Positions 2,937 to 20,595 of a DNA stretch of 24,791 bases are shown here, one piece after another. This stretch comes from a virus. How positions within the stretch are numbered: the stretch's first letter is position 1; each line of letters begins with the position of its first letter. The stretch lies in the IMG/VR virus record IMGVR_UViG_3300017751_000213, positions 1 through 24,791 of that record; one strand, given 5' to 3'. Position numbers and translations under genes: made by a program. The notes under the pieces were generated by a model. The model was not told the DNA's origin. It saw nothing but the letters and a program-made list of their open reading frames with translations, and made no database searches.

Positions 2937-3338
2937 ATGTCAACTCGGAGGATTTCCAGAGCATTTAAAGATATCAGCCTTTCCTTTGATCCACATCCTG
3001 TGACAAAGGACCTACCTGTGCTGGTGAATGAACGTGCAATCATTAGATCTGTACGTAATATAGTCGAAACAATTCCGACTGAGCGATTTTTTAACGCAAC
3101 CTTTGGTTCCGATGTTCGTCGGAGCCTTTTTGGGTTTGTGGATATAGGTACTGCTCTTGTTATTGAAGAACAAATTTCAAATTCAATTAGATTTTATGAA
3201 CCTAGGATTGATAATCTAAAGATTCAAGTTGATCCTCAACCAGATAATAATTCATTTAATTGTAATGTATTCTTCGATATCGCTGGATTAGATATCCCAA
3301 CCTCAAATTTTTCATTCATACTAGAGGCAACACGATAA
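2937..3338 (+). CDS. 25: Baseplate wedge subunit gp25
   Basis: A 133-residue protein of the gp25/GPW (lysozyme-like) baseplate family, close to the T4 length of 132. The recognisable parts are the N-terminal VNERAIIRSVRNIV helix, the PTERFFNATFGSDVRRSLF segment (about 46-65) and the conserved E-P-R motif (E88-P89-R90) in YEPRIDN, followed by the C-terminal beta-strands. In T4 and all contractile injection systems this protein sits in the inner baseplate, binding the gp6 dimer and sheath initiator region, and transmits sheath contraction. It is the first gene after the late promoter at 2905 and is followed three bases later by gp6, in the same order as functional partners in the wedge core. 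Confidence 0.95.
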   Translation: MSTRRISRAFKDISLSFDPHPVTKDLPVLVNERAIIRSVRNIVETIPTERFFNATFGSDVRRSLFGFVDIGTALVIEEQISNSIRFYEPRIDNLKIQVDPQPDNNSFNCNVFFDIAGLDIPTSNFSFILEATR

Positions 3339-3341: not shown

Positions 3342-5267
3342 ATGCCTTTTACACAGTTTACTAACTTAGATTTCGATCAAATAAAAGCAGAAATCAAGTC
3401 ATATCTCCGTTCTAATTCAAATTTTACGGATTTTGACTTTGAAGGATCGAATTTTTCCGTCCTAATCGATACTTTAGCGTACAATACGTACATTAATGCA
3501 TTCAATGCCAACCTGGCAGTGAATGAATCGTTCTTAGATGGAGCAACAGTCCGCGAAAACGTAGTTTCGTTGGCAAGGAATATTGGATATGTACCAAGGT
3601 CAAAGAGTGCTGCAAAGGCACAAGTCACATTTTCGGTTCCAACTACCTCTACTAGTACTACTTTAACTCTCAATGCGGGTTTAGTTGCTGTTGGACCCTT
3701 TGATAATACATCATATCGTTTTTCGATACCTGAAAATATTACAACAACGATAAAAAATGGTGCTGCAACGTTTGGAACGGCAGATGCACCCATTGAAATC
3801 TTCCAAGGAACGTTATTAAGCAAGCAATTCTTAGTTGATAATTCTGTTGATCAACGTTTTGTTCTTGATAATCCAAATATTGATGCTTCTACAATTAGAA
3901 CTTACGTCAAAGGAGTCAATGATACTGGTCTTGGAAGAGAATTTGCCAAGATTGATAACATTTTAAACATTGATAAGGCATCTGAGATCTATCTGATTCA
4001 GGAAATTGCTGATGAGAGGTATGAATTACTATTTGGTGATGGATATTTTGGTAAAAAGTTAGAAACTAACTCTGTTATCACAGTAAGATATATTATTACT
4101 GATGGTGAAGAAGGAAATGGTCCAAATACCTTCGATTTTCAAGGTAATTTGATCAATGAGAACGGTGTTAGAACCACTCCTACTGGTGCTATACCAATTA
4201 CAGTCGTTCAGAGGGCGATAAATGGTGGTGAAATAGAGAATGTCTCTTCTATTAAGTACTTTGCCCCACGATTGTATTCCGCGCAGTACAGAGCGGTTAC
4301 GTCAAGGGACTATGAAGCGATTATTTCTTCAATTTACTCCAATACTGAGTCGGTTGCAGTAGTTGGAGGTGAGGAATTGGTTCCACCACAGTTTGGAACG
4401 GTTCAAATTAGTATTAAACCCAAGAATGGGTCATATATTTCCGATTTTGATAAGCAAAACATCCTCAATAAACTTAAAAAGTATTCTATTGCGGGTATCA
4501 ATCAAAAAATCATCGATCTTAAGGTTCTGCACGTTGAACTTGACTCTACAATTTACTATGATGTATCAAAAATTAGTAATGCAAACGATTTAAAGACTAA
4601 TATTACTGATACGTTATCAACATATTCAAAAGATGTTGATATGAATCGTTTTGGAGGTAGATTTAAGTACAGTAAAGTCCTTCAATTGATTGATAGAGTT
4701 GATAGTGCAATTACTTCTAACATAACAAAGGTTAGAATTAGAAGAGATATGAAATCATTACTTAATCAGTTCGCTCAATACGAACTTTGCTTTGGTAATA
4801 GATTTCACATCAATCCTGCAGGATATAACATCAAGAGTACTGGTTTTACAATCACTGGATCAAGCGATATTGTTTATTTGACTGACGTTCCAAATAAGGA
4901 CGCATTAGGAAATCTTGATGGTAGTGGAAAAGGTATTATATCTGCAATTAAAAAGACAAATACTGATCAATTACAAGTTGCTTTGAGAGGTGTTGGTACA
5001 GTTGATTATATTAAAGGTGAAATTCTTTTAAATACAATTAATATCACTTCAACGCAACAACAAAACGCCATTATTGAGGTTCAAGCATTCCCAGATTCTA
5101 ATGATGTAATCGGGTTGAAAGATTTGTACCTCAGTTTAGACGTTTCAAGTAGTAGGATAAATACGATTAAAGATGTTATAGCATCTGGTGAAGACATTAG
5201 TGGTGTATCTTTTGCAAGAGAATACTATACTTCAAGTTACTCAAACGGAGACCTAGAGAGGAAATAA
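3342..5267 (+). CDS. 6: Baseplate wedge subunit gp6 (J-like)
   Basis: A 641-residue protein, close to T4 gp6 (660). The N-terminus carries the family signature: DFDQIKAEIKSYLRS, then SNFSVLIDTLAYNTYINAFN and LAVNESFLDGATVRENV, and the GYVPRS turn (about residues 6-87). The middle has the Baseplate_J-like region including LLFGDGYFGK and SAQYRAVTSRDYEAII, and the tail is beta-rich. Two copies per wedge form the continuous inner ring of the baseplate and grip gp7 and gp25. It starts three bases after gp25 with AGAGG at 3323-3327 as ribosome site, so it should be co-transcribed with it. The giant gene follows after four bases. Confidence 0.95.
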   Translation: MPFTQFTNLDFDQIKAEIKSYLRSNSNFTDFDFEGSNFSVLIDTLAYNTYINAFNANLAVNESFLDGATVRENVVSLARNIGYVPRSKSAAKAQVTFSVPTTSTSTTLTLNAGLVAVGPFDNTSYRFSIPENITTTIKNGAATFGTADAPIEIFQGTLLSKQFLVDNSVDQRFVLDNPNIDASTIRTYVKGVNDTGLGREFAKIDNILNIDKASEIYLIQEIADERYELLFGDGYFGKKLETNSVITVRYIITDGEEGNGPNTFDFQGNLINENGVRTTPTGAIPITVVQRAINGGEIENVSSIKYFAPRLYSAQYRAVTSRDYEAIISSIYSNTESVAVVGGEELVPPQFGTVQISIKPKNGSYISDFDKQNILNKLKKYSIAGINQKIIDLKVLHVELDSTIYYDVSKISNANDLKTNITDTLSTYSKDVDMNRFGGRFKYSKVLQLIDRVDSAITSNITKVRIRRDMKSLLNQFAQYELCFGNRFHINPAGYNIKSTGFTITGSSDIVYLTDVPNKDALGNLDGSGKGIISAIKKTNTDQLQVALRGVGTVDYIKGEILLNTINITSTQQQNAIIEVQAFPDSNDVIGLKDLYLSLDVSSSRINTIKDVIASGEDISGVSFAREYYTSSYSNGDLERK

Positions 5268-5271: not shown

Positions 5272-8200
5272 ATGTCGAATTTTGAGAAGAGAGTTCAACT
5301 CAATAAAATTATTGAGAGTCAACTTCCAGAATTTTTAGTTTCAGACTTCCCAAAAGCAGTTGATTTCTTTAAGCAATATTATATTTCCCAAGAAAAGCAG
5401 GGAGGTAATATTGACCTTGTAGATAATCTTGATCGTTATCTTAGGGTAGATAATCTTGTTCCTGAAGTTGTTGTTGGTAAAACGGCATTATCCTCAGCAA
5501 TTTCTGCATCTGATACAACAATTGTAGTCACATCTACAAAAGGTTTTCCAGATGATTATGGTCTTCTGAAGATTGATAATGAAATTATCACATACACTAG
5601 CAAAACTTCAACGACATTTACTGGATGTGTTCGTGGATTTACTGGTATTACTGGATATGATAGTGGTATATCAAATTTAATCAATACTGTCAATAAGCAA
5701 ACTGTTGTCTTTTCAGAAACTTCTGCAGAAGAACATTCAAACAATTCGACGGTTACTAACCTTAGTGCTCTCTTCTTACAAGAATTCTATAAAAAATTAA
5801 AGAGAACTTTCACACCAGGATTAGAAGAATATGAATTTGTTTCTGATCTTGATGTCGGTAACTTTATAAAGCATGCAAGAAACTTATACCAATCAAAAGG
5901 TATTGAAGAATCTATAAAAATTCTTTTTAAAGTTCTTTATGGTGTTGAAGCAAGTGTTATTGACCTTGAAGAGAGGCTTATAAAACCATCTGCAGCAAAT
6001 TATATTAGAAGAGAAACTATAGTTGTTGAGAGGATATCTGGAGATCCTTTTAAATTGGAAGGGCAAACTATCTTCAAATCTACAGATAGTGGAACAAGTG
6101 CATCTGTATCTGATGTAGAAATTTTTACAAGGAATAATGAGACTTTCTATAGACTTGGTCTCTTTATTGGATATAATGATAGAGATTTAATTGAAGGAAC
6201 ATTTACAATTCCTGGATCTTCAAGAGTTCTTGAGAATGTTTCTGTTGGATCATCTGTTATCAATGTTGATTCTACGATTGGTTTTGGTCAAACTGGAACT
6301 GTTGTTGTAGGATCAAATGCAATTGATTACACTGCAAAGAGTATTAATCAATTTTATGGTTGTATCAATGTAGGTGCAGCGATCACAACGGGTACTAGAA
6401 TCCGCTCTAATGAGTATGTTTATGGTTATGAGGACAATGACCTAACCAAGAGAGTAGACCTCCGTATAACGGGCGTACTGGCAGACTTCAATCCTCTTGG
6501 AAAACTCTCATTAATGGAAGTGGGAGAAGAAATAAAAGTAAGAAATGTTGGCGAAGTTATTACTAATCCAACAACTGACAGAACATATAAACAAATTTTT
6601 GCAAACTCTTGGATTTATAATACAAGTTCAAGTTACAATGTAGATACTATCAATGGTTCAATCTTTACATTATTAAGTGATATTGATAAATCAAGTCTCA
6701 AACAAGGTGATACTGTTGATATTGTAAATGGTTCTAATGTAGTTGGTGCTGGTGCAACTATTGTATCTGTTAGTGAACCTACAAAAGAAGTTACTCTTGG
6801 TAATATTGTAGGTTTTGCCGCATCTACTGGTGTAAATTATAGTCTTCGCAGAAGAGTTGAGAAATCTGAAAGTGTTGGTGTAGCACTTTCTTTGGGTAAT
6901 GATGCGTATATTGCAGACACTTTAAATGTGTATACTGATGAAAACGATGAGTTTGGATATATTGCTTCAAACTCTTTACCATCATATACAATCTATGATG
7001 ATATTATTGAAAAAAATGCTGACAGTCTTGGTGAAAGAGACAATGTTTTCAACAACTATACTGTAGTAGTATTCCCAAGTGATGTCGATTTCTTAGATGG
7101 TGATGAAATTGTTTACACTGCAGAAACTCCAATTGCTGGTTTAGTTTCTAATGCATCATACTTCGTTAAAAAGTTTGTAGATTCTACTGGAACAGTAATC
7201 AATAATAAAATTTACTTATATTCATCAAAAGCATTACTTAAAGGTAATGAATATATTAAACTTGATTACGTTGTTTCTGGTGGTGGAGGAGTAGGATCTC
7301 TGGTAGGAACTCATACTTTCACTCTTAGAAGGCATGAAGATAGAGTTCTTTCCCCAAATCAAATTCTTAGAAAATTCTCTCTTAACACATCACTATCAGA
7401 TATAAAGAGTGAAAATAGAAAAATTGGTTCTATTGGACTTTTAGTTGATGGTACTCAGATTTCAAGTCCAGAATCTAGAGATAAAATTTATTATGGACCA
7501 ATCAGTGAGTTTGAAGTTTTAAATGGCGGAAAGGGATATGATGTTATTAATCCACCAAAAATTATTATTAGTAAACCTGTAGGACTTGGAAATACTAATG
7601 CACTTGTTGAACCTGTTATTGAAGGTATTGTCAATCAAATTTTAGTTGATCCTCAAGATTTTGATATTGAAAGTATTGAAGGTGTATCTTTAGTTGGTGG
7701 TAATGGTTCTGGATGTCAACTTGAGCCTGTTATGGGGTCAAGATTTAGAGAACTTTCGTTTGATAGTCGTTCTCTTTCTCTAGGAGGTGGAGTAGATATT
7801 GATAATGAAACTATTACTTTTAGTGACTTTCATAATCTTTTTGATGGTCAGCACTTGATCTATAATCAAAATGGACATAATGCAATATCAATTGGTGTAG
7901 CAAATGATCCTACACAATCTATTGAAGGAACTTTGGTGAGTGGTGATGAATATGTTACAAAATTTGTAAATACCACCAGTATCAAGTTATTCAAAACTGA
8001 TGCTGATGCTTTAGCAGGAATTAATACTATTGGATTCTCTACAGCAACAACTGCTAGTGGTATTCATAAGTTCAGAACATTATCAAGAAAAAATTTAAGA
8101 GAAGTTAAAGTTATTCAGTCTGGATCTGGATACACTTACAGAAAGTTGAGAGTTTCTTCATCAGGAATCTCTACAGAGTATAATACAATTTACTTTAAAA

Positions 8201-11200
8201 ATCATGGATTTAATACTAATGATATTGTTGACTATTCATATGAAGGAACTTCAATAGGTGGATTAACTGATACAAACAGATATTCTGTTCAAAAAGTTGA
8301 TGCAGATAATTTCCGTGTTATAGATGTTGGTATTGGTGCTTCTATTGCAACAGATCTTGTAAGATCTAAAGTAGTCGATATTACGACAGTTGGAGTTGGA
8401 ACACACATTTTCCAATATCCACCAATTAGTGTTGACATTAATGTTTCTTATGGATCAACTCTTGGGGGAACATTTGTTTTCACTCCAATCGTGACAGGAG
8501 AAATTATTGATGCATATCTCTATGAACAAGGAACTGGATATGGATCAAATACCCTAAACCTCCATAAGAAACCCCTAATATCGCTTCCACAGGGCAAGGA
8601 CGCACAGTTATCACCAATCATCCTTAATGGTAGAATTGATGCCGTACAGATCCGTAACAGAGGGGCAGGATACAAATCATTACCAATTATTGAAACTGAA
8701 GGTACCGGTACTGGAGCAGTTTTAAGACCGATTCTTGGTGGTATTAATGGAGAACAAATAATTGAGGTCAAAGTTATAAATGGTGGAATTGGATATGATC
8801 AAAATCTTACTGATATTATTATCAAACCAAGGGGATCTGGAGCAAAGTTTGATTTAAGAGTTAGAGATCTTACAGTCAACGATGCTGAAAGATTTGCATC
8901 TTATACTAAAAAAAGACAAGAAAAAATATACTCAAATCTTTCACCTAACGAAACTAGTGATCTTCTTGTATATTCAATGTATGGATATTCAAGTGATCTT
9001 GCAATAAAATTCAATGATACTGCTAGTAATCATTCTCCAATTATTGGATGGGCATATGATGGCAATCCAATTTACGGACCATATGGATATTCGACAATAG
9101 ATGATGTTCAGTCTGGTGTTAGACTGTTAGAATCTGGATATGTTATAAATTCAAATTCCATTATTGATCGCCCATTGTTATCAAATTATCCAGAAGGATT
9201 CTTCATTGAAGATTATCAGTTTACTGACGTTGGTGATCTTGATAAGCACAATGGAAGATTTTGTAAAACAACAGAATTTCCAAACGGAGTTTATGCATAC
9301 TTTGCTAGTGTAAATGTAGATGGTAGTTCTTTAGAACCACAATATCCATATTTCATTGGAAATTCTTTCCGATCAAAGTTCATAAAGGAAAATGAAGTAT
9401 TAGATCAAACATTTGATTTTAATAATTCAGATCTTGTTCGTAATACTTTTCCATACAAAGTAAACGATAAAGATGCAAATTATGATTTTATAAACGAATC
9501 ATATGAATCTTTTGCACAAATTGCAAGAATTGAATCTGTTAGCCAGGGAGATATTGATGAAGTAATAGTTGTTGATGGTGGAAGTGGATATCAAATTGGT
9601 GATGTAGTTAACTTTGATGAAACTGGAACCAAAGGAAGAGGTCTTAGAGCACAAGTTTCTGAACTTAAGGGTATTGAAGTTGATTCAATTTTAACATCTT
9701 TAGAAACTTATGAGAATGTAGTATTTGAATGGGATACTGATAGAGCAGTTTCTGTATATTCTAGAGATGGATATCTAGATTTTAATAATAATGATACTGT
9801 TTTAATAACTGGATTATCTACTGCAGTTACTTACTTAGCAGATTCTCATCATATTGGGTTTACTACAGAAACAGTAGGTTTGGCAAAAACCATGACTTCT
9901 TTTACTGGAGCAACTTCTGGTGTTGGTGTATTTGAAGACATTTTAGTTTCTAATGTTCCTGTAGTATCTGCAGGAAATACAATTACTATTTTCTCTAGTG
10001 CCGGAACTGAAAATGTTAGAGTTCTGAATAACTTTAATAATGGTGTATTAAGAGTTCAAAGATTTGGTGAGGCACCAAATTATACAACTGGTGTTGCTCA
10101 CACATTTGGCAGTGAGTTGAATGTTATAAGTGATAGAGTTAGATTGCCAGTTAAAACTAAAAAGTTTACTTCCAAACGTGATGACTTAGTATATTTCAAT
10201 CCTTTAGAATCAGTTGGTGTTGGTTTAACTGATGGTTCTGCAATATCAAAAATTATTACCGTAGGTATTACTACATCTGAAATATCTATTCCAACTAGAA
10301 CAATCTATCTTCCAAACCACCCATTTACTACTGGTCAAAAAGTAACTCTTTCCAAAGGTGCTGGCAATCCAAGTTCCTTCACGGTTGGGATGAATAATTC
10401 AAATGTGAATACATTCTTTATTCCAGATCTATCAACAAAAGAAACAGATCTTTATGTAATTAACAAGGGAAGAAATTATATTGGACTTGTTAGTGAGACT
10501 GTTGGTGCTGTAGGAGTTGGTACAACATCAGAAGGACTATTCTTCTATAATGTTGGAAATGCTGCAGATAGATCAGATTATCTAATTAAGAGTAATAAAG
10601 ATCAAATTACTGGTAATTTAAGTAGAATCACAACTCTGGTAAGTTGTGCAGAAACTCATGGTCTCAGTCGAAATGATGTTATTAAGTTAAACGTTCTTCC
10701 AAATACTATTGTTGGTGTCGGAACAACAGCAGCGTTAAGATTATCATTGGATTTGAACGAGAAAAAAATTCTTGTAAATTCAACTGATGTAGAATCAAGT
10801 GCGATTAATTTAAGTAATAATACATTTACTCTAACTTCCCACGGATATTCGACTGGTGATAAAATTTATTATAGTGGTGATGCAACTGGAATTGTATCTG
10901 GAGATTATTTTATAATTAAGGATTCTCTCAGTACTTTCAGACTTGCTGAAACTAAGTATGAATCAAATCCTGCAAATCAAAAAGAGATTAATATTACTGC
11001 TACTGGATCTGGTCCCCATACTATAGCATTAATTAATCCAAGACTTGACGTTGTAAGAAATTCTGACATTCAATTCAATTTGCAAGATCCATCCCTCTTT
11101 GGATATAATCTAAAAATATACAGAGAAAAAGAATTTGTAAATGAATTTGTTAGTGTTGCAAATAATAGTGAATTTAATATTATTAGTGCAGGGTCAACTA

Positions 11201-14200
11201 TTGGTCTTGGTACTTTAACCAATCCAACATTAACACTTAAGCACTCTAACAATATTCCAAGTCGGTTGTATTATACATTAGAAAAATCTGGATATATTAG
11301 TACTGCAGATACAAATGTAAATGATTATTCAGAAATTAATTATATTAATAGTGAATATAATGGTAGTCATAAAGTATTTGGTATAACGGGTGCAGGTAAT
11401 ACAACTACCTTTAAAATTTCTCCTGTCAAAATTCCATCAGTCCTCACATATAATAAATCACAATGCGATAAACTTGAATATTCTACAAAATCTGCATCAG
11501 CATTAAGTGGATCTATTGGTAAAGTAAGAATTATATCTAAAGGATTTAATTTTGAAAGATTGCCCCAATTCACAGATGTAACATCTGAAACAGGTATTAA
11601 TGCAAATATTTTTGCAGAATCTACATCTATTGGTTCACCTAAAAAAGTAAGATTTAAAGATATTGGATATGATTATCCTTCAGATAAAACTCTAAGACCA
11701 CAAACATTTGTTCCACCGGTAATAAATTTAGATAACTTAGACACAATTAAAGATTTTGATATTATTTCTCAAGGTAGCAGATATCTCAGAGATCCTGACG
11801 TCATTCTTATTAATGATACAACTAAAGAAATTGTAGACAAAGATTCACTTTTAGCGAAAGCACCAAATGGTGCTATTTCAGAAATTGAAATTTTAGCACC
11901 ACTATTTGGATTAGCATCAGAAACACATAAACTCGTGTTTGTTAATAATTCAAATGGTGTTGGTATTTCTACTATGACAGGTGATGGTATAAGTGGAGTT
12001 GCAACTTGTACTCTTGTGACACCTATTCTTGGATTTGTTCAACCTCAATTTGAAGTTGGTGATGAAATTTTTATTGAAGGTATTGATTTAGATTCAACAG
12101 GAACTGGATATAATTCTTCGGATTATAACTATCGTTTCTTCAAAGTTAAGAGTTATAATAATATTAGTCCTGCAACTCTAGAATTTGAAATTGTTGATGA
12201 TGCTGGTGTTGGATTATCTACAAATGTTGGTTTAGCTAAAACAGTTCAATCTGGATATGCAACTATTATAAACAAAAAATATTACCCAGAAGTAACAGTT
12301 ATTCAAGATAGATCAAAATTCTTTGCCAATGAACAACTTTATGTTAATACAACTGGGGCATCTTTTGTTGAAGAAGATATATTTGTATCTTTAATTAGAG
12401 ATGACTACATTAAGGTTCAAGGTAACTATGATTTAAATATTGGAGATAAAATTAAGGGAGTTATAAGTGGCACTATTGCAGATGTTACTGGTGTAAGTAG
12501 AAATAAAGGATATTTTAATATTGATTATTCATCCAAACAAGAACTTGGGTGGAGAGATGATACTGGGAAAATTAGTGTTGATCATCAGGTTATTCCTAAT
12601 AATGATTATTATCAAAATCTTTCTTACTCTGTTAAGAGTCCAATTACTTGGGAAGAACAATCTTCACCTGTTAATAGCATAATTCATCCTGCAGGATTAA
12701 AGAATTTTGCTGATGTTGGAGTTACCTCTACAGGATCTTCTACTGTAGGACTTGCTGGAACAACAACTAGTATTGCAATTCTTGATGTTGTAAATGAAAG
12801 AAGAGTTGATACTATTAATAATTTTGATAACGTAGTTGATTATGATATTAGGGAAAATGCACTTTCTAATTTCGATCAATCTAAGTTCTTAAAATTTCAA
12901 AATATAAAACTTGAGGACTACATTGAGTGTAGAACTAATAGAGTCTTGATTCACGATGACATTAGTAATAACTTCTCTAGTAGAGGATTTAAAGATATAT
13001 TCATTGAATTAGATGAAATTGATTTTTCTGATAATTATGTTGGATATGTAATTCAAGTTGTTGATGCAGACACTAAAGATGTTCAACTTTCTGAATTAGT
13101 ATATCAATCTACAACCTTGAATACATTCTTATTTGAAAAATATACAAACTTCACTAAAGAAAAACTTGGAGATTTTAGTACTGATCTTGATTCTGCAGGA
13201 AGAAAAACTTTAATCTTTACACCTACAGATCCCTATGAAAGAGATCATGATATTAAGATTCTCAAGAGATCATACCTATACACAGCATTAGCTGGTGGTG
13301 GAACTCAAACTGGAACATCTTCTTTTGGATCAATTGATCTTGTCGGATCATTTGTATCTGGTATTGGCAGTGTTGGAACAGCATCTAGTATTAAAACTCT
13401 AGTTGATTTCCCAGTTAACGATTTTAATGGGATGTATGCCAAAGTTGAAATTGTTGATAGATTTACCTCAGATCACAACTATATTGAAGCTATTGTAGAT
13501 TTTGACGGTACTGATACTTATTTGAGTGAGTATTATTTTGATACTCAATCTTTATCTTACAGTTCATCACAAACTGGAATACTCTCAGCAATTTATGATG
13601 CCAATGCTGGCATTGTTTCTTTAACTGCACAGAATGTTGGTATTTCTTCCTTAGTTGGTCTTTATGATGTTCGTTCTACTATTGTTGGATTTGGAACAAC
13701 AACTACTGGTATTGGAACATACAGATACCTTGTAAATAATCAACCTGCAGGCACTGAAAAGAGCGTTAAAATTGAATCTACTGTTGGGTTTGGAACAACT
13801 GCAGTTAGAGTTGGAACTTTCGATCTTGAATCAGTTTCATCTTCAAATTCGGTTGTTCGTGTTTCTGCAGGAGAAACTTCTGCAATTCATCAGGTTTCAA
13901 TTCTTTCAAATACTTTACAAACTACAGTAGTTCCTGGTCCATTTGCAGCAGTTAATAATGTTACTGGACTTGGGACATTTGGTGGAGAAATTGATGGATC
14001 AAGATATTATCTAAATTTCTATCCAGATACTCCATATGATGTAGAAGTTCAAGGATACAATGAAGTATTCTATACTGAGCAAGATTATGATAATACACCA
14101 CTACCAAATACATATGGACCTACTATTGGTGAGGTTTTATATGATGCTTATGATGGAATCAATGGATTGAGAGCAAATAGAACTCAATTCAAACTTTCCC

Positions 14201-17200
14201 ATGAAGGTGATCCAATCTATGTCAAGTCATTCGTTCCCACCGATACTGCACAAGTTAATTACGTAACTGGAGTTATTACATTACGCAATCACTTCTTTAA
14301 TACTGGAGAAGAACTTATTTACCGCCCATCATCAACATTTGCTGGTATTGGTTCTACCGCAATGGGGATTGGTTCTACCGAAGGTTATACTGGTATTGTC
14401 ACTGACAAATTACCAGATAGAGTATATCCTATTGCACTCACTCCTGATACATTCCAATTATCAACAAGACGTGAATATGCAAAAGCAGGTATATTTGTAA
14501 CCTTTACTGATGCTGGTTTAGGTAATATCCACGAACTTGAGATAACTAAGAAACTTTCTAAGACTGTCATTGCTCTGGATGGTATTGTTCAGCAACCAAT
14601 TGCATTTACCCCAATTAATCATAATTTAGATTTTAATAATGGTGGAATTACTGCAGGAATTTCAACGTTCAATCTCACCGGTATTAGTTCTGTTCAACCA
14701 AGAGATGTTCTTAAGATTGACGATGAATATATGAAGGTTGTTGAAGTTGGATTGAGTACCAATGTTAATGGAGCACTTCTTGGTCCTATTAATGGAATTA
14801 TTGCCGCTGGTACCGCTGCAACTCACCCAACAGTTGCTGTTCAAAGAGGTTCGTTAGGAACCAGAGCAGAAGCACACAGCGATGGCGCAGAAGCAAGGAT
14901 TTATAGGGGAGCACTTAATATTGTTGGTAACAATGTTCACTTCATTGATCCACCAAAAGGTAATACGAGAGCGAGAAGAAATGAATCTAATCTCCCTTAT
15001 GTTAAGGCAGAATTTTCTGGAAGAACTTTCTTAAGATCAAATTATGAAAAGAATATGCTATTCGATGATATTTCGGATAGTTTTACTGGGGTCGGTAAAA
15101 CTTACACTTTAACAACATCTGGTTTGAATACTACAGGCGTTGGTATTGGTAGTGGAATTTTATTCATCAATGGAGTGTTCCAAACTCCATCTACACTCAA
15201 TAATTCTGGAAATAATTATAATTTTGAACAAGATAATATTTCGGGAATATCTAGTGTAGTATTCACAGGCATTACATCAGTTGATGGATCTTACATCCAA
15301 TCTGAATCAGATATTAACCAAAATCAGTTACCAAGAGGTGGTCAAATTGTATCATTAGGTTCAACACCTGGTCTCGGATATGCACCTCTTGTTGGTGCTA
15401 AGTTCATTGCAGAAACAAATTCATCTGGTGCAATCACAGGTGTTGTAGGTGTAAACACCTTCATTAATCCAGTTTCAATTACAACGGCACATTATAATAA
15501 TATTAGTGGTATCCTTGAAATTGAAACATCAGATTCCCATTACTTAAAGGGTGCTGATAGAGTTAGACTTGTTGGTCTTGAGTTTACTTGCTCCAGTGTT
15601 TATTCTGGAGTAACTACAAGCATTTTCCCAGATCATAATAGATCTCTTGATATCGCAAATATTATAGATTCAACAAAACTAAACGTTCAAGTAGGTCCTA
15701 GTACTATTATTCACAACTATCTTAAAGATGGTCAGATTTATCAGCACTTTGATCTTAATATTGGATCCGGTTATAGACATCCTATCGGAATTGCAGTTAC
15801 CGATCTTGCATTCGTTCATAAATTTGTTCGTGCTATTACAAATAGCGTTACTGCTTCAAGTGGTGGACCATTCACTCCAACAAAAGCAAACTATGATTCA
15901 AAAACTGGTGTTTTAAGACTTACTATTCCAAACCATGGATTATCTGTTAGTGATACTATTACAATTGCTGATGATGGATTAATCTTTACTTGTGATGAAG
16001 ACCAACACTTTACTGAGCAACCATATCCAAGATCAACTGATCCAGCATCAGGACAGAATCTTACGATCACTAATGTTACAACAAATATTATTACAGTAAA
16101 TGTTGGATCTGGTGGTGGTTCTGGAACTGGGGCTGCCATTGAAGCAGTTGTTGGTGCTGGTGGAACACTTGCATTAAATGTAACTTCTACTGGTTCTGGA
16201 TATAAGAATCCAAGAATTGTAATTCCTGAACCAAATTATGAAAATATGGAAGTTACTGGTGTTTCTAGACTTGGTATCGGTGCAACATCATTGACAGGTA
16301 GAAATGTTCTGATGAATCTCACCATCGCACAAACTACTGAAAAAGCACTTGGTGATAGGTTCTTTGATGCAGCAAATCTAATTGAGGATAATGCAGCATT
16401 TATTGCTGATATTGCTTATGGAAGAATGTTAGCGCAGTTCCCATCATATTCACCTCCTGCAGGAACTAATGGACAAGATTGTAAGGATGATATTGTTGAT
16501 GTTCTTGAGTCCATCTCATACAATCTCAAATATGGTGGCAATGATTATACTGTAGATGCAGCAAATCTTTATATTACTGGGGCACACGTTTCGGGAGAAG
16601 AACAAGAAACTGCATATGCATTTGATCAGGCAAGAGATCTTGCAGTTCAGGCAATGAGAAATGAGGCAGTTACTATTGGTGGGTATACTACTAAGACACA
16701 AGTATTTGATACATCAATCACTTATGATACTGTAAAATACACTCCATCCAACGTTGCATACACTGCTTCTTCTGGAATTACTACAGTAACAATTCCAAAT
16801 CATCAGTTCTCAAATGGAGATCAAATTAAGATTAGAACTAATTCACTAATCTTTAAGTGTGATAAAGATAACTTTGCAACTGAGCACAGATATCCTAGAC
16901 CAACTGATCCTGCAGCAGATACCTTCTTAAGTATTACTAATGTAACCACAAATACTTTCAGAGTTAATGTTGGAGCATCACCAGCAGGTGAACAATATAA
17001 TCATATATTCACATTCTCAGAACTTGCTTCTATTGAGCGCAAATTGACCTCTTCAACTACACCAGCACAATGTGCAAATGTTCAATCTGCAATTCATACA
17101 TTAGTTGGTATCGTTACAACCGCTGTTGTATCTTCAAGTATTCCACCAAGAACTGTTGCACCTGGTGCTCAGTATTCTGTGGATACCTTTAAACTTACTA

Positions 17201-18999
17201 GAAATGGATATGATTTCCGCCCTGGTGATGTGTTTAAAGTTGTTGGTCTTGTAACTGCAAAAGACTTTGCACAACCATCCTCAGATTTCCAAGTTGAAGT
17301 TACATCAACTTTCAATGATTTCTTTGCTGCATGGTCTTTCGGTGAACTTGATTACATTGATAATATTGCTGGATTCCAAGATGGAAGTAGAAAAAGATTC
17401 CCATTATTCTATGTTGGTGAACTTTTGAGTTTTGCACTTGATAGTCAATCCCCATTATCATCTGCAATCGATTTAGATGCTGTACTTGTAATTTTTGTAA
17501 ATGGTGTTATACAAACTCCAAAAATAGCATATACTTTTGAAGGTGGTGGTTCTTCATTCATATTTACAGAAGCTCCTCAACCTCAAGATAAAGTAGACAT
17601 ATTCTTCTATATCGGTCAAGATAGCATTGATGTTACTAGAATTGAAGTTAAAGAAACAATCAAAAAAGGTGATGATCTATTCGTAAATAGACATCCATTC
17701 TTCTCAAGTGCAGTTGATAACTTATATCAGCAACAAATACGCAGTAGAACGATTTCAGACATTATTGGTTCTGACATTGTTGAAACTGATATTTACACTG
17801 GACCTGGAATTAATGATATTGATTACAGACCATTTGATTGGACCAAGCAAAAGGTAGATAAGTTTATCAAAGGTGATCTTATCTCAAAATCTAGAGATAT
17901 TTTAGAAGCAAGAATCTTCCCAACGGCAAAAATTATTGGTGATGTTACTCCAACCTCATCGGAAATCTTTGTTGATAATATTCAGTTCTTTAATTATGAG
18001 GAAGAGGTTTATACTCATCCATCATTTAGCAATCTCTTCGATTCTCTAGATGCTGTTATAATTGATGCAAATGATCCTATTGGAGCAGGATTTACTGCTA
18101 ATGTCTCTATAGCAGGAACTATTTCTGGAATCAACACTACAAACGTAGGTTCTGGATACAGTGGAACGTCATTGGATATTAAATTCTCTGCACCAAAAGT
18201 TATTGGTGTTGGTATAGGAACTACGGCAACTGCCACAGCAACTATTTCTAATGGATCGATATCTTCAGTAAATATTACAAATCCTGGTTTAGGATATACC
18301 AATACAAATCCACCACATTTAATTATTGAAACTCCTAGTTTAATTAAGGAGGAAATTAAGGAATCTACAAATATCCAAGGTTTCTCTGGCATTATAACTG
18401 GTATTTCTACAACAACTGGAACTGGTGGACATCCACTTGCCCTCAAGATTAACTTTAGAGCACTTAAAGATTACACTACAGGTGGAGAAGCACAACTTGC
18501 TTCTGATGCACTTGATTTGGTTGCTGGTTATCCAATTATGGTTTATGGAACTAAAGTTGGAACTGGCGCAACTTCAGTATTCGATAGTAATGATGCTGTT
18601 GTTGCCATTGGAACCACATTCCTAGATAATGTATATGTTGTTAGTCAAAAAAGTTTTGAAAATGGACCTGATGCTGAGTTAATTCTGAACGTTCATAGTG
18701 ATAGTCCTATTACAGGAATTTCAACTTCTGGAGGTTTTGAGGATAATCAAGCAGGTACAGCAACAACTGCACTTGGATACCTATCTTGGGGTAGGATATA
18801 TAATTATGCTGAACGCAGTGGTGGTGTTTCTATTGGTGTAACTGGTTTAACAGTTGATGCTGGATTATCCACATTCCCTGTTCTTCAAAGAAGAGGAAAT
18901 GCTGGATTTGATAAGAGTGGTGCAATCAGATCTACTAAGTCTATTGTTAATTCTGCAAATATTACTGCAGATAATCAACTCCCATTCTACGGTGCTTAG
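5272..18999 (+). CDS. 7: Giant gp7-like baseplate wedge protein with long modular extension (4575 aa)
   Basis: One uninterrupted frame of 4576 codons from ATG 5272 (GAGAGG ribosome site at 5256-5261) to the amber stop TAG 18997-18999. Residues about 1-350 resemble the C-terminal module of T4 gp7: YQSKGIEESIKILFKVLYG (about 206-224) against T4 YSTKGIEASYKFLFKVLYN, then GQTIF near 264. The place between gp6 and gp8 is also that of gp7, the wedge initiator that joins the gp6 pair. The remaining ~4200 residues are beta-rich modules: at least nine 'NHG..GD.V.Y' units, about a dozen GxGY units, three 'IDNEI' units, a YHYH domain (about 1250-1366) and helical segments near 3687-3819 and 3934-3952. 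It ends DNQLPFYGA. There is no signal peptide, protease or lyase motif, and no intein. T4 gp7 is about 1030 residues, so this is over four times longer. The gp7 assignment is sound for the N-terminus; the role of the extension (peripheral baseplate or host contact) is inference. Confidence 0.85.
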   Translation: MSNFEKRVQLNKIIESQLPEFLVSDFPKAVDFFKQYYISQEKQGGNIDLVDNLDRYLRVDNLVPEVVVGKTALSSAISASDTTIVVTSTKGFPDDYGLLKIDNEIITYTSKTSTTFTGCVRGFTGITGYDSGISNLINTVNKQTVVFSETSAEEHSNNSTVTNLSALFLQEFYKKLKRTFTPGLEEYEFVSDLDVGNFIKHARNLYQSKGIEESIKILFKVLYGVEASVIDLEERLIKPSAANYIRRETIVVERISGDPFKLEGQTIFKSTDSGTSASVSDVEIFTRNNETFYRLGLFIGYNDRDLIEGTFTIPGSSRVLENVSVGSSVINVDSTIGFGQTGTVVVGSNAIDYTAKSINQFYGCINVGAAITTGTRIRSNEYVYGYEDNDLTKRVDLRITGVLADFNPLGKLSLMEVGEEIKVRNVGEVITNPTTDRTYKQIFANSWIYNTSSSYNVDTINGSIFTLLSDIDKSSLKQGDTVDIVNGSNVVGAGATIVSVSEPTKEVTLGNIVGFAASTGVNYSLRRRVEKSESVGVALSLGNDAYIADTLNVYTDENDEFGYIASNSLPSYTIYDDIIEKNADSLGERDNVFNNYTVVVFPSDVDFLDGDEIVYTAETPIAGLVSNASYFVKKFVDSTGTVINNKIYLYSSKALLKGNEYIKLDYVVSGGGGVGSLVGTHTFTLRRHEDRVLSPNQILRKFSLNTSLSDIKSENRKIGSIGLLVDGTQISSPESRDKIYYGPISEFEVLNGGKGYDVINPPKIIISKPVGLGNTNALVEPVIEGIVNQILVDPQDFDIESIEGVSLVGGNGSGCQLEPVMGSRFRELSFDSRSLSLGGGVDIDNETITFSDFHNLFDGQHLIYNQNGHNAISIGVANDPTQSIEGTLVSGDEYVTKFVNTTSIKLFKTDADALAGINTIGFSTATTASGIHKFRTLSRKNLREVKVIQSGSGYTYRKLRVSSSGISTEYNTIYFKNHGFNTNDIVDYSYEGTSIGGLTDTNRYSVQKVDADNFRVIDVGIGASIATDLVRSKVVDITTVGVGTHIFQYPPISVDINVSYGSTLGGTFVFTPIVTGEIIDAYLYEQGTGYGSNTLNLHKKPLISLPQGKDAQLSPIILNGRIDAVQIRNRGAGYKSLPIIETEGTGTGAVLRPILGGINGEQIIEVKVINGGIGYDQNLTDIIIKPRGSGAKFDLRVRDLTVNDAERFASYTKKRQEKIYSNLSPNETSDLLVYSMYGYSSDLAIKFNDTASNHSPIIGWAYDGNPIYGPYGYSTIDDVQSGVRLLESGYVINSNSIIDRPLLSNYPEGFFIEDYQFTDVGDLDKHNGRFCKTTEFPNGVYAYFASVNVDGSSLEPQYPYFIGNSFRSKFIKENEVLDQTFDFNNSDLVRNTFPYKVNDKDANYDFINESYESFAQIARIESVSQGDIDEVIVVDGGSGYQIGDVVNFDETGTKGRGLRAQVSELKGIEVDSILTSLETYENVVFEWDTDRAVSVYSRDGYLDFNNNDTVLITGLSTAVTYLADSHHIGFTTETVGLAKTMTSFTGATSGVGVFEDILVSNVPVVSAGNTITIFSSAGTENVRVLNNFNNGVLRVQRFGEAPNYTTGVAHTFGSELNVISDRVRLPVKTKKFTSKRDDLVYFNPLESVGVGLTDGSAISKIITVGITTSEISIPTRTIYLPNHPFTTGQKVTLSKGAGNPSSFTVGMNNSNVNTFFIPDLSTKETDLYVINKGRNYIGLVSETVGAVGVGTTSEGLFFYNVGNAADRSDYLIKSNKDQITGNLSRITTLVSCAETHGLSRNDVIKLNVLPNTIVGVGTTAALRLSLDLNEKKILVNSTDVESSAINLSNNTFTLTSHGYSTGDKIYYSGDATGIVSGDYFIIKDSLSTFRLAETKYESNPANQKEINITATGSGPHTIALINPRLDVVRNSDIQFNLQDPSLFGYNLKIYREKEFVNEFVSVANNSEFNIISAGSTIGLGTLTNPTLTLKHSNNIPSRLYYTLEKSGYISTADTNVNDYSEINYINSEYNGSHKVFGITGAGNTTTFKISPVKIPSVLTYNKSQCDKLEYSTKSASALSGSIGKVRIISKGFNFERLPQFTDVTSETGINANIFAESTSIGSPKKVRFKDIGYDYPSDKTLRPQTFVPPVINLDNLDTIKDFDIISQGSRYLRDPDVILINDTTKEIVDKDSLLAKAPNGAISEIEILAPLFGLASETHKLVFVNNSNGVGISTMTGDGISGVATCTLVTPILGFVQPQFEVGDEIFIEGIDLDSTGTGYNSSDYNYRFFKVKSYNNISPATLEFEIVDDAGVGLSTNVGLAKTVQSGYATIINKKYYPEVTVIQDRSKFFANEQLYVNTTGASFVEEDIFVSLIRDDYIKVQGNYDLNIGDKIKGVISGTIADVTGVSRNKGYFNIDYSSKQELGWRDDTGKISVDHQVIPNNDYYQNLSYSVKSPITWEEQSSPVNSIIHPAGLKNFADVGVTSTGSSTVGLAGTTTSIAILDVVNERRVDTINNFDNVVDYDIRENALSNFDQSKFLKFQNIKLEDYIECRTNRVLIHDDISNNFSSRGFKDIFIELDEIDFSDNYVGYVIQVVDADTKDVQLSELVYQSTTLNTFLFEKYTNFTKEKLGDFSTDLDSAGRKTLIFTPTDPYERDHDIKILKRSYLYTALAGGGTQTGTSSFGSIDLVGSFVSGIGSVGTASSIKTLVDFPVNDFNGMYAKVEIVDRFTSDHNYIEAIVDFDGTDTYLSEYYFDTQSLSYSSSQTGILSAIYDANAGIVSLTAQNVGISSLVGLYDVRSTIVGFGTTTTGIGTYRYLVNNQPAGTEKSVKIESTVGFGTTAVRVGTFDLESVSSSNSVVRVSAGETSAIHQVSILSNTLQTTVVPGPFAAVNNVTGLGTFGGEIDGSRYYLNFYPDTPYDVEVQGYNEVFYTEQDYDNTPLPNTYGPTIGEVLYDAYDGINGLRANRTQFKLSHEGDPIYVKSFVPTDTAQVNYVTGVITLRNHFFNTGEELIYRPSSTFAGIGSTAMGIGSTEGYTGIVTDKLPDRVYPIALTPDTFQLSTRREYAKAGIFVTFTDAGLGNIHELEITKKLSKTVIALDGIVQQPIAFTPINHNLDFNNGGITAGISTFNLTGISSVQPRDVLKIDDEYMKVVEVGLSTNVNGALLGPINGIIAAGTAATHPTVAVQRGSLGTRAEAHSDGAEARIYRGALNIVGNNVHFIDPPKGNTRARRNESNLPYVKAEFSGRTFLRSNYEKNMLFDDISDSFTGVGKTYTLTTSGLNTTGVGIGSGILFINGVFQTPSTLNNSGNNYNFEQDNISGISSVVFTGITSVDGSYIQSESDINQNQLPRGGQIVSLGSTPGLGYAPLVGAKFIAETNSSGAITGVVGVNTFINPVSITTAHYNNISGILEIETSDSHYLKGADRVRLVGLEFTCSSVYSGVTTSIFPDHNRSLDIANIIDSTKLNVQVGPSTIIHNYLKDGQIYQHFDLNIGSGYRHPIGIAVTDLAFVHKFVRAITNSVTASSGGPFTPTKANYDSKTGVLRLTIPNHGLSVSDTITIADDGLIFTCDEDQHFTEQPYPRSTDPASGQNLTITNVTTNIITVNVGSGGGSGTGAAIEAVVGAGGTLALNVTSTGSGYKNPRIVIPEPNYENMEVTGVSRLGIGATSLTGRNVLMNLTIAQTTEKALGDRFFDAANLIEDNAAFIADIAYGRMLAQFPSYSPPAGTNGQDCKDDIVDVLESISYNLKYGGNDYTVDAANLYITGAHVSGEEQETAYAFDQARDLAVQAMRNEAVTIGGYTTKTQVFDTSITYDTVKYTPSNVAYTASSGITTVTIPNHQFSNGDQIKIRTNSLIFKCDKDNFATEHRYPRPTDPAADTFLSITNVTTNTFRVNVGASPAGEQYNHIFTFSELASIERKLTSSTTPAQCANVQSAIHTLVGIVTTAVVSSSIPPRTVAPGAQYSVDTFKLTRNGYDFRPGDVFKVVGLVTAKDFAQPSSDFQVEVTSTFNDFFAAWSFGELDYIDNIAGFQDGSRKRFPLFYVGELLSFALDSQSPLSSAIDLDAVLVIFVNGVIQTPKIAYTFEGGGSSFIFTEAPQPQDKVDIFFYIGQDSIDVTRIEVKETIKKGDDLFVNRHPFFSSAVDNLYQQQIRSRTISDIIGSDIVETDIYTGPGINDIDYRPFDWTKQKVDKFIKGDLISKSRDILEARIFPTAKIIGDVTPTSSEIFVDNIQFFNYEEEVYTHPSFSNLFDSLDAVIIDANDPIGAGFTANVSIAGTISGINTTNVGSGYSGTSLDIKFSAPKVIGVGIGTTATATATISNGSISSVNITNPGLGYTNTNPPHLIIETPSLIKEEIKESTNIQGFSGIITGISTTTGTGGHPLALKINFRALKDYTTGGEAQLASDALDLVAGYPIMVYGTKVGTGATSVFDSNDAVVAIGTTFLDNVYVVSQKSFENGPDAELILNVHSDSPITGISTSGGFEDNQAGTATTALGYLSWGRIYNYAERSGGVSIGVTGLTVDAGLSTFPVLQRRGNAGFDKSGAIRSTKSIVNSANITADNQLPFYGA
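5482..5667 (+). repeat. 'IDNEI..RG' module, copy 1 (giant protein residues 71-132)
   Basis: The pattern is S..I.V.STKGFP followed by a glycine, KIDNEIITYTS and GCVRGFTGI. Related copies lie at 6241-6408 (residues 324-379, VDSTIGF then AIDYTA and FYGC) and 14656-14886 (residues 3129-3205, VLKIDDEYMKV then VQRGSLGT). The unit is familiar from other phage structural proteins as a small beta domain. Here the first copy interrupts the gp7-like N-terminal region. Confidence 0.55.
9022..9363 (+). other. YHYH domain inside the giant protein (about residues 1250-1366)
   Basis: The segment reads HSPIIGWAYDGNPIYGPYGY (H1254 onward), then after about 60 residues DLDKHNGRF, then FPNGVYAYFAS and PYFIGNSF (ending near 1365). 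These blocks and their order match the YHYH family, known mostly from secreted or surface proteins of bacteria and algae and from phage virions. The family's function is not established. The first Tyr-His-Tyr-His-like block is altered to VYAYF here. Confidence 0.8.
15883..16113 (+). repeat. Paired beta repeat A (giant protein residues 3538-3614)
   Basis: It is closely paralogous to repeat B at 16738-16983. Both contain TIPNH, then GLIFTCDEDQ or SLIFKCDKDN, then YPR.TDPA, then LTITNVTTN or LSITNVTTN and (T/R)VNVG. This is the most recent-looking duplication in the giant protein. It is followed by GxGY and other linker sequence and then the helical module. Confidence 0.75.
16330..16728 (+). other. 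Helical module in the giant protein (residues 3687-3819)
   Basis: In contrast to the beta-rich surroundings this part is predicted helical: FDAANLIEDNAAFIADIAYG, then the loop GTNGQDCKDDIVDVLESISY, then NLKYGGNDYTVDAANLY and FDQARDLAVQAMRNEAVTI. I recall the same block in other cyanophage virion proteins, without a known role. It continues after repeat B with CANVQSAIHTLVGIVTTAV (17071-17127, residues 3934-3952). Confidence 0.65.
16738..16983 (+). repeat. Paired beta repeat B (giant protein residues 3823-3904)
   Basis: Paralogue of repeat A at 15883-16113, sharing PNH, LIFKCDKDN, YPRPTDPA and SITNVTTN. It is placed between two helical segments (3687-3819 and 3934-3952), which suggests that it was inserted into a helical domain. 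Confidence 0.75.
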
Positions 19000-19041: not shown

Positions 19042-20595
19042 ATGTCAGCTATTGTTACTGATCAATTTAGAATTCTGAATGCCAGTAATTTTGTGGACTC
19101 AATTGAGTCCAATTCTTACTACATTACATTAGGATTAGCAAATCCAGTTGCTGCTGGATATGGTAGAACTAGTGATTGGAATACCAATCCACCTTCACCG
19201 GTAGATAATCTTTCGTATGCTAGTCATATTGGAGATACTGTACTTTTTGGTAAGAAGATTACTTCTGCCAATGCACGAAGGATTGTTAGAAGAATTGATT
19301 GGAATTCGGGAACAAAATATGAAGTTTATAGAAATGACTATAGCGTCACAAATCCTGCACCCATAACAAATGCTGCTCGACTATATGATGCAAATTACTA
19401 TGTAATGAATGAAGATTACAGAGTTTATCTTTGTGTTGAAAATGGATCTAGTGGAACTAATCCCAAAGGAAATGTTTCTCAGGATCAACCAACATTCACT
19501 GATTTAGAACCATCTAGAGCAGGGGATAGTGGTGATGGATATATCTGGAAATATCTATTCACAATCAGTCCTAGTGACATTATTAAATTTGATTCTACAG
19601 ACTATATTACAGTTCCTAATAGTTGGTCAATTTCAACTGATTCTCAAATAAGAGCAATTAGGGAATCTGGAGACTCCAGTATTAATGAAAACCAAATCAA
19701 AACGGTTTATATTGAAGATTCTGGATCAAATTATGCTAATGGTCTTGGTCAAGAGATGAATATCATCGGTGATGGCACCGGTGGTAAGGTTAGAGTTGAT
19801 GTTGAAGGTGGTAAAATTACAAATACTGTAGTTACCTCTGGTGGAAAAGATTATAGTTATGCATTAGTTGATCTTGGATCAATAAATTCAAATACTAGTG
19901 GAACTTCTGCAAAGTTAGTTCCAATTATCCCACCATCTAAAGGTCATGGTTTTGATATCTATAAAGAACTTGGAACTGATAAAGTTTTAGTTTACGCCAG
20001 ATTTGATGATTCTACAAAAGATTTTCCAGTTGATACAAGTTTTGCCCAAGTGTCAATTGTGAAAGATCCAACTGCTATTGGAACTGCAAATACATTTACT
20101 GATAGTAATTTTACTGGATTATCTGCGTTTAAACTTGTATCAATTACAGGAACACCTAAAGTTGGTGAAAAAATTGAACAATCCGTTCAAAACGGAACTG
20201 CAAAAGCATTTGGTTATGTTGCTTCGTTTGATACCGAAACTAAAGTTTTGAAGTATTTTACGGATAGATCTTTATTTTATAATCAAACAACAAAAGATCA
20301 ACAAGATTATACAGGCATTTCTACTAATGGTAGACCATATGCTTTTGAATCTTCATCAAATTTAATTAGTGGTCAAACTTCATCATTCACAGGATCAGTT
20401 GATACTGGATTCTCAGGAATTGCTACAAATCCAACAGGAATTAAGCAAATAAATCTGGGTTCTAGTTTCACAGCAGGTATGTCAGTTCCTGAAATAAATA
20501 AAGGATCAGGGGAAGTTATCTACCTGGACAACAGAGCTAGCATTGCTAGAAATGCACGTCAAAAAGAAGACATCAAAGTTATACTGGAATTCTAA
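19042..20595 (+). CDS. 8: Baseplate wedge subunit gp8, enlarged
   Basis: A 517-residue protein against 334 in T4. Family blocks are the N-terminal AIVTDQFRILNASNFVDSI and SYYITLG, the GDGYIWKYLFTI segment (T4 has GDGYVWEYLFEI) followed by YITVPNSW, and the C-terminal GEVIYLDNRASI plus a terminal strand ending in EF (T4 GEMIYMENRPPI). gp8 is a dimeric part of each wedge that binds gp7 and gp6 in T4. The extra length lies mainly in the middle: residues about 221-298 contain two GxGY-like units (SGSNYANGLG and SGGKDYSYAL) of the same kind as those in the giant protein upstream. A late promoter lies 16 bases upstream of the start; the ribosome site is weak. The next gene begins three bases after the stop. 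Confidence 0.93.
   Translation: MSAIVTDQFRILNASNFVDSIESNSYYITLGLANPVAAGYGRTSDWNTNPPSPVDNLSYASHIGDTVLFGKKITSANARRIVRRIDWNSGTKYEVYRNDYSVTNPAPITNAARLYDANYYVMNEDYRVYLCVENGSSGTNPKGNVSQDQPTFTDLEPSRAGDSGDGYIWKYLFTISPSDIIKFDSTDYITVPNSWSISTDSQIRAIRESGDSSINENQIKTVYIEDSGSNYANGLGQEMNIIGDGTGGKVRVDVEGGKITNTVVTSGGKDYSYALVDLGSINSNTSGTSAKLVPIIPPSKGHGFDIYKELGTDKVLVYARFDDSTKDFPVDTSFAQVSIVKDPTAIGTANTFTDSNFTGLSAFKLVSITGTPKVGEKIEQSVQNGTAKAFGYVASFDTETKVLKYFTDRSLFYNQTTKDQQDYTGISTNGRPYAFESSSNLISGQTSSFTGSVDTGFSGIATNPTGIKQINLGSSFTAGMSVPEINKGSGEVIYLDNRASIARNARQKEDIKVILEF

Follow-up and report, generated by a model that had tools for sequence, protein, structure and literature searches.

A giant gp7-type baseplate wedge protein of a T4-like phage and a core probably split by about 2,100 residues

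Described gp7 systems and the giant protein

In the baseplate of bacteriophage T4, gp7 joins two copies of gp6 in each of the six wedges. The gp7 chain of T4 (PDB 5IV5 and 5HX2) carries element 1 (residues 645-760), domain V (766-861), and element 2 (862-901) in succession, and its gene lies after gp6 and before gp8. This study analyzed a virus fragment of 24,791 bases (IMG/VR record IMGVR_UViG_3300017751_000213, positions 1 to 24,791; hereafter the window), a record outside which the remaining genome lies, and a protein of 4,575 residues encoded in it at 5272-18999 on the + strand. The gene of this protein is likewise preceded by gp6 and followed by gp8, and the protein holds the same three parts in the same order. 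However, approximately 640 residues precede the core in T4 gp7 and 101 separate its two elements, whereas in the giant almost none precede the core and the elements are 2,168 residues apart. On the basis of profile comparisons and predicted models, we consider that the giant is probably a gp7 from a T4-like phage of the cyanophage type, in which the shared core is complete but spread out.

Giant proteins of this type have been recorded previously. A 5,195-residue protein annotated as gp7, baseplate wedge subunit, occupies the same slot in P-SSM2 and is 47% identical to residues 5-3000 of the giant, and a 7,312-residue protein named gp7 lies directly after gp6 in P-SSM4; the first 6,278 residues of the latter were analyzed. 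Both proteins resemble the giant in following gp25 and gp6 directly and in the order of the core elements. P-SSM4 differs from the window in having two genes, one of them gp9-like, between gp7 and gp8, and in carrying approximately 600 residues in a site within element 1 (slot A, described below). Eight short gp7s, those of ACP17, pf16, RHph_I1_18, Desulfovibrio phage 7757, Ochrobactrum phage OC, Cr30, phiM12, and HTVC008M, share with the giant an N-terminal core and the order of the elements, and their genes lie directly after gp6 where annotated, but they comprise only 482-1,016 residues, with 61-773 between the elements as bounded by hidden Markov models (HMMs). Outside this group, PMC10457771 describes an N-terminal helix-turn-helix in XM1 gp17 that, like gp7, joins two gp6-type partners, and PMC10457771 and PMC6300606 give TssG the same 2:1 heterotrimer as (gp6)2-gp7. 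Unlike the giant, XM1 gp17 has 242 residues, and its loop 80-106 and C-terminus hold spikes (PMC10457771). An equation of this loop with slot A was dropped, as helix counts do not settle it.

Both the giant size and the gp7 label are therefore already in databases and are not new. The PHROG 2885 profile ("baseplate wedge subunit", 4,179 positions) matched the giant with E = 0, and residues 1-3000 matched somewhere in 466 of 50,697 phage records at E <= 1e-5, 92 of them with 80% or more covered at a single place; modules rather than gp7 may account for some of the partial matches. In PMC3037559, gp7, gp10, and gp12 of T4-like phages other than cyanophages are described as so divergent that they form up to nine clusters, and peptides of 41 proteins are reported from S-SM1 virions. 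What is new is likely the division of the core anchor by an insertion of about 2,100 residues; no description of a split gp7 core was found in the open-licence PMC literature, which is weak evidence. A 142-residue stretch around the second half of this core (element 2) was located at 407 places in 406 of the 50,697 phage records (E <= 0.01), and many annotations reading "structural protein" or "hypothetical protein" would gain a common identity through this element.

The single frame between gp6 and gp8 on which the sequence-only reading of this locus had been built was borne out, as 5272-18999 runs from an ATG to a stop through 4,575 codons with no internal stop. Four other IMG/VR contigs carry the giant unbroken, in stop-to-stop frames of 4,580 (L105), 4,577 (L108), 4,660 (L111), and 4,671 codons (L175). 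In all four comparisons of these contigs with the window, differences at the third codon position exceeded those at the first and second in nine of nine full 500-codon blocks. The four unbroken contigs and the third-position bias rule out an assembly fusion or fluke as the source of the giant.

The gp7 core and its probable second element

The sequence-only reading had noted that an SKGIE-type motif and a GQTI resemble T4 gp7, and this resemblance is real. In a single BLASTP comparison, residues 727-758 of T4 gp7 matched residues 198-229 of the giant (15 of 32 identical, E = 4e-5), and GQTI, at residues 264-267 of the giant, follows the motif in T4 too. PHROG profile matches were weak (residues 1-400 to the family of T4, 8.5e-4; T4 to PHROG 2885, 1.3e-4). 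Because direct similarity to T4 consisted of one short stretch and these weak matches, we used bridging families. The gp7 set, defined by similarity and gene slot, comprised 16 proteins outside the T4-type group (the giant included) and six T4-type proteins, five of them from Straboviridae records and one from a record, K575, that names no family.

An element-1 HMM was built from the N-terminal 150 residues of nine short-core phages, with no T4-type protein and no giant. The model matched the giant at residues 9-65 and 169-256 (E = 1e-18) and T4 gp7 at 645-760 (E = 7.4e-12), and it found all 13 held-out gp7s; the best of 200 shuffled versions of the giant reached 2.7 bits. The first of these stretches, core element 1a (5296-5466, + strand; independent E-value of the domain, i-E, 3.3e-5), is an N-terminal helical hairpin, with helices predicted at residues 2-17, 20-25, 27-43, and 49-57. 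The second, core element 1b (5776-6039, + strand; i-E 2.2e-12), contains the KGIEESIKILFKVLY helix and the stretch matched by BLASTP. A counterpart of domain V follows at about residues 243-320 (5998-6231, + strand; end approximate), as placed by VIA-align and by the A1 profile. This profile was built from 92 N-termini, namely 85 of 86 non-redundant candidates out of 145 (L049 was excluded), six S-PM2-type rows, and the giant itself. Among 177,635 distinct PDB sequences it retrieved only two at E <= 10, both T4-type gp7s (3e-4 and 1.7e-3), and in the gp7 chain of 9f4a the match covered residues 729-814, reaching into domain V. The top two PDB matches of a second profile, A2, which was built from 40 of 50 non-redundant short forms out of 80, were the same two T4-type gp7s (E = 1.3e-6 each; next, 0.021). 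Foldseek comparison of a predicted model of residues 1-420 with 350,542 PDB chains also placed two T4-type gp7s at the top (2.5e-4 and 1.3e-3). VIA-align matched residues 763-851 of the T4 gp7 chain 5iv5_BJ to residues 243-410 of the model (Z 9.0, root-mean-square deviation [rmsd] 3.9, 86 residues aligned). The comparison of the N-terminal residues with T4 gp7 that the sequence-only reading had proposed thus gave gp7 by HMM, A1 profile, and Foldseek, and the identity that it had assigned to the giant gained support from profiles, folds, and bridging families.

Family searches by other routes returned little. The Pfam families Gp7_helical, Gp7_5th (766-861 in T4), Gp7_6th, and fn3 had no match in the giant, domain VI (PF21456) had no Pfam match after the core, NCBIfam had no match for the giant, and a single-sequence search of the whole giant against PDB sequences yielded nothing meaningful (best E, 0.086). 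Two candidates fell below their cut-offs, namely PvlArgDC at residues 3126-3205 (19.5 versus 22.7 bits), which was set aside, and PF23786, Baseplate_wedge (15.8 bits versus 27; 23.1 bits for residues 1-400).

The alignment of short gp7s revealed a second conserved element (YYQ..SY..HPAG) after the KG-helix, reading roughly QD..YYQ.YSYVI...Y...VK..LHPAG...FGE, and in T4 gp7 this element lies at about residues 862-901. An HMM of this element was built from eight phages, with no giant and no T4-type gp7. The model located core element 2 at residues 2425-2492 of the giant (DYYQNLSYSVK...IIHPAGLKNF; 12544-12747, + strand; E = 1.8e-12, domain i-E 7.5e-12). It also found all 14 held-out gp7s, with 200 shuffles scoring at most 2.1 bits, placed the element at 2465-2534 in P-SSM2, 1807-1879 in S-PM2, and 3529-3599 in P-SSM4, and matched the six T4-type gp7s with E-values from 4.1e-7 (G5211) to 4.5e-4 (T4). 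Among the giants, residues 2401-2500 form a local conservation peak (0.66, versus 0.55 and 0.61 in the neighboring blocks). We therefore interpret element 2 as the other part of a single core that about 2,100 residues interrupt, a reading that the profile and model evidence makes fairly probable.

The fold of a short relative points in the same direction. The three best PDB matches of the model of L182, which has 295 residues, were T4-type gp7s (E = 1e-10 to 9e-8), and VIA-align aligned 161 residues of it (82-275) with T4 gp7 residues 723-896 at Z 10.4, a span holding most of element 2, including HPAG; the first row that was not gp7 had Z 6.1. The lower rows include chains of contractile-tail baseplates of other kinds (9gtp_A, Z 5.0 over 137 residues; 8kea_b, Z 5.4; 9euf_C, Z 5.2), which are too weak to count on their own.

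Alternatively, element 2 might be an independent mobile module whose position midway along the giant is accidental, since the giant is modular and modules of its insert are common to gp8 and other proteins. However, one clear copy was present in each of the 22 gp7s, C-terminal to element 1 in every one, and none of 246 IMG/VR open reading frames with element 2 (ORFs; redundant loci included) had two copies. The A2 model was scanned against 11 phage records (six named phages and five IMG/VR records, some of them fragments); only the gp7 frame or frames matched its helical part (columns 1-118) and its element-2 part (columns from about 455), and other ORFs matched columns of about 150-450, where domain V ends and short gp7s carry their insert. 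A separate gp7 homologue elsewhere, against which the sequence-only reading had asked for a check, was accordingly absent from these 11 records of relatives, fragments included. The absence of element 2 outside gp7 frames in these 11 records and its place inside the fold match of L182 to T4 gp7 make an accidental position highly unlikely.

Several observations weigh against the identification as gp7 and the pairing of the two elements. The model of residues 1-420 is of middling confidence (predicted local distance difference test [pLDDT] 70, predicted template modelling score [pTM] 0.39), as we would expect for a piece working inside a complex, and element 2 lies outside the modeled piece. Its best VIA-align row was a Mystique tail-tube domain (Z 9.8, residues 313-381) and not gp7; a VP1 capsid chain, T4 gp7 (Z 9.0), and a tailspike were tied with it. 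Residues 313-381 are a small beta domain common to many proteins, F1-ATPases included, and are uninformative on function. VrlC-size frames match columns 152-261 of the gp7 model, reaching into domain V, and domain V by itself therefore does not identify a gp7. With an element-2 HMM derived solely from the six T4-type gp7s, the giant was not among the hits at E <= 10; the best E-value of this model elsewhere was 2.3e-3, and one shuffle (0.037) scored above most phages. As this T4-only model misses the giant, it is the bridging profile and the fold comparison that tie element 2 to T4. Taken on its own, element 2 of T4-type gp7s receives negative scores from the A2 profile (-4.0 and -1.6 bits), the whole-chain match of L182 has an rmsd of 16.9, indicating pieces that match separately, and the L182 model is itself of middling confidence (pLDDT 68, pTM 0.43).

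The sequence-only reading had placed the anchor at the beginning of the protein and regarded about 4,200 residues as appended. The thousands of extra residues stand, but because the second half of the core lies at residues 2425-2492, growth occurred by insertion into the core together with a C-terminal tail. Proteolytic processing occurs in phage heads, and a processed chain, in which the first few hundred residues serve as the virion gp7 and the rest as separate proteins, is compatible with the sequence. An early cleavage would, however, separate core halves lying 2,100 residues apart unless they stayed bound, and the third-position bias extends along the whole frame; we regard processing of this kind as unlikely.

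Core position, accessory baseplate genes, and VrlC

We compared the position of the core across the gp7 set, using the annotated protein start where one exists. The core began within about 5 residues of the start in 15 of the 16 gp7s outside the T4-type group, down to a protein of 482 residues, with phiM9 (257 residues before the core) as the exception; for the training phages such a start follows from the way the HMM was built, and their alignment shows the same. All six T4-type gp7s had 628-746 residues before it. The core match of the giant begins at residue 9, with 3 residues before the start of the HMM, and the front block of about 640 residues that marks the T4 subtype is absent, as the sequence-only reading had stated. 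That reading was also right in placing the core at the N-terminus here, but its counterpart in T4, at about 645-901 of 1,032 residues, occupies the C-terminal third and not the very end. An N-terminal start is also described outside the set, with core helices opening the 242-residue XM1 gp17 in PMC10457771 and a helical bundle at residues 1-107 of A-1(L) gp32 in PMC10966104.

These positions bear on the proposal that the C-terminal module of T4 gp7 moved to the N-terminus and that everything after about residue 400 is an appended extension replacing gp9-gp12. The core does start the giant protein. Nevertheless, an N-terminal core is the rule outside the T4-type group, so the claimed move from end to beginning was not supported, and the location of element 2 deep in the chain speaks against a simple extension. 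In an unrooted tree of the set, the T4-type branch had values of 100/100, the giant and P-SSM2 grouped with 100/100, and the four giants had 92/91 and were not starred; 12 of the 19 inner branches were open, and two rows were long (ACP17 and phiM9). Because the tree is unrooted, we infer its root and the direction of change only from the distribution. The simplest reading of that distribution is that the relatives of T4 added a front block and that marine phages added an insert and a tail. This suggests that T4, the textbook case, would be the unusual one in where its gp7 carries extra domains.

The second half of the same proposal concerns gp9-gp12. In the 11 records, PF07880 (the N-terminus of gp9/gp10) exceeded its cut-off in two, T4 and P-SSM4, with a weak match below the cut-off in G005 (E = 1.1e-3), and PF08677 (gp11) exceeded it in T4 only. 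Neither family matched P-SSM2 or S-PM2, as a replacement would lead one to expect. However, neither matched phiM12 or HTVC008M, whose gp7s have only 1,007 and 1,016 residues, and P-SSM4, with the largest gp7 (7,312 residues), has a gp9-like gene. The claimed replacement was not supported on these grounds: as judged from the gp9/10_N and gp11 profile matches in the 11 records, absence of gp9-gp11 genes does not accompany gp7 gigantism, and replacement of gp9-gp12 was rejected as the cause of gigantism. The combined proposal of a moved module and a replacing extension is very unlikely.

The gene order in the window is gp25, gp6, the giant, gp8, and a VrlC-type ORF, all on the + strand, which places the giant in the slot of the gp7 lineage. 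The gp25 gene lies at 2937-3338 (PF04965, phrog_261), the gene of gp6, the expected partner, at 3342-5267 (phrog_219, E = 1.2e-195; PF21379), and that of gp8 at 19042-20595 (PF09215, phrog_438). The VrlC-type protein (DUF4815) at 20599-24789 is open at the window end and resembles the VrlC of HTVC008M (BLASTP, E = 1e-87). The VrlC/DUF4815 domain PF16075 did not match the giant and matched this ORF, from 20599 on.

According to PMC7029224, cyanophages and pelagimyophages have no T4 gp7, which in them "appears to be substituted" by VrlC, in which case the giant would be an unrelated structural protein; the limitation of direct BLAST similarity with T4 gp7 to a 32-residue stretch is in keeping with that view. 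However, HTVC008M, the reference pelagimyophage of that paper, encodes a 1,016-residue protein (AGE60389) after gp6 and before gp8 that holds both core elements, together with a separate VrlC next to gp8, and phiM12 also carries both genes. The VrlC-size frames, moreover, match only columns 152-261 of the gp7 model (153-223 for the S-PM2 frame), and not the helical or element-2 columns. VrlC was accordingly rejected as a substitute for gp7, and the statement of a missing gp7 is contradicted by these sequence comparisons; that cyanophages lack gp7 and that the giant is unrelated to it is hardly credible.

Insertion slots, tail, and proposed architecture

Three sites of the giant hold residues beyond the core. 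Slot A, a beta-rich insertion of about 100 residues (66-168; 5467-5775, + strand; model strands within 70-163), separates elements 1a and 1b; it has no counterpart in most short gp7s and is of similar length in HTVC008M and Melnitz. The slot A of P-SSM4 (L085, 14138 on), with about 600 residues where the giant has about 100, is a second widely opened site in the core. Slot B extends from domain V to element 2 (about residues 321-2424; 6232-12543, + strand; HMM bounds) and includes a YHYH domain (PF14240, 90.9 bits against a cut-off of 25) at residues 1237-1348 (8980-9315, + strand). As domain V, reaching to about residue 320, sits inside the 2,168-residue gap, the true insert measures about 2,100 residues. 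The corresponding gaps by HMM bounds were 2,209 residues in P-SSM2, 2,780 in P-SSM4, 1,562 in S-PM2, 61-773 in the twelve other gp7s that are neither T4-type nor giant, and 86-101 in the T4-type gp7s.

IMG/VR loci were collected in four scans with queries from three phages (the window twice, OC, and S-PM2), keeping the 80 best per scan, and ORFs identical over a stretch of 300 residues were merged, which reduced 224 to 176. The resulting 176 distinct ORFs hold both elements, with distances from the KG-helix match to element 2 of 76-416 residues in 64, 1,422-1,658 in 33, and 2,109-2,305 in 79; the 176 do not include L280, whose distance is 2,516. These three classes reflect the queries, as these came from three phages, and the distances in HTVC008M, phiM12, and P-SSM4 lie in the gaps between the classes or outside their range. 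Across the 32 giant ORFs that were complete, the standard deviation was 44 residues for the spacing of the elements and 364 for the tail that follows element 2. The tail ranged over 1,439-2,935 residues, in loci reaching at most 10 kb to either side of the match, which limits the visible tail length.

This variable tail, slot C, comprises residues 2493-4575 of the giant (about 2,080; 12748-18996, + strand). A 34-row alignment revealed an occupancy of 30-55% at residues of about 3700-4000 and of 86-100% in the other 100-residue blocks, and the variable cassette so delimited (about residues 3701-4000; 16372-17271, + strand) overlaps the best stretch, 3688-3820, of phrog_5342, "tail fiber protein". 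It also contains one copy of an internal repeat: copy 1 lies at residues 3534-3613 (15871-16110, + strand) and copy 2 at 3823-3902 (16738-16977, + strand), with 50% identity in a self-BLAST (E = 1e-22). As judged from the sequence, slot C with its tail-fibre-like cassette would be the likeliest place in the giant for fibre docking or host recognition.

With respect to the origin of slot B, the insert columns of short gp7s also matched, mostly weakly, inside the giants of P-SSM2, P-SSM4, and S-PM2 and in the gp8 of HTVC008M. In the window, residues 216-308 of gp8 and the giant match the same PHROG 701, a module common to both. Because of these recurrences, slot B may have been built from modules already used in the gp7 slot.

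Sequence and fold comparisons show a shared wedge core made up of the N-terminal helical hairpin and the KG-helix, a small beta domain (domain V of T4), and a beta-alpha-beta element ending in HPAG. By analogy with T4, element 1 would join two gp6 copies in the core bundle, and element 2 would fold back beside the KG-helix, so that slot B would leave the wedge and return to it. Slot B would then form a fixed outer part of the baseplate, in six copies per virion, and the slot C tail would carry the variable, host-facing part. Against this stands the origin of the functions suggested for slots B and C, which derive from conservation and family names alone. The composition of the outer baseplate in marine T4-like phages becomes a question about one named gene with mapped boundaries between core and insert. 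More tentatively, we propose, as a possibility that we rate somewhat below even chances, that one gp7 chain per wedge makes up the outer baseplate in marine cyanomyoviruses by means of a loop of constant size (about 2,100 residues) and a tail of about 1,400-2,900 residues with a swappable recognition cassette. If this proposal is correct, an insertion of this size in a core of less than 350 residues would represent an extreme of insertional growth for a molecular machine.

Further observations concern the giants and the window itself. Residues 3201-3400 (14872-15471), in the middle of the tail, showed an identity of 0.68-0.71 among giants, near the level of the N-terminal core, and no family of their own was noted. 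In L076 (9998-21205), the giant gp7 lies in three frames of 749, 605, and at least 2,005 residues, which may be due to sequencing errors or to a gene that is really split. The N-terminal part of a giant gp7 lies without an annotated gene at 138852-140267 of HQ633071 (S-SKS1), whose match to residues 4-2993 is broken into four segments; an annotation gap or a frameshift is possible. Positions 1-600 of the window have a G+C content of 54-57%, compared with about 35% further on; bases 2-165 are similar to cyanophage genes (72-81% identity among the matches listed), and none of 120 matching records covered 80% of the stretch in one place.

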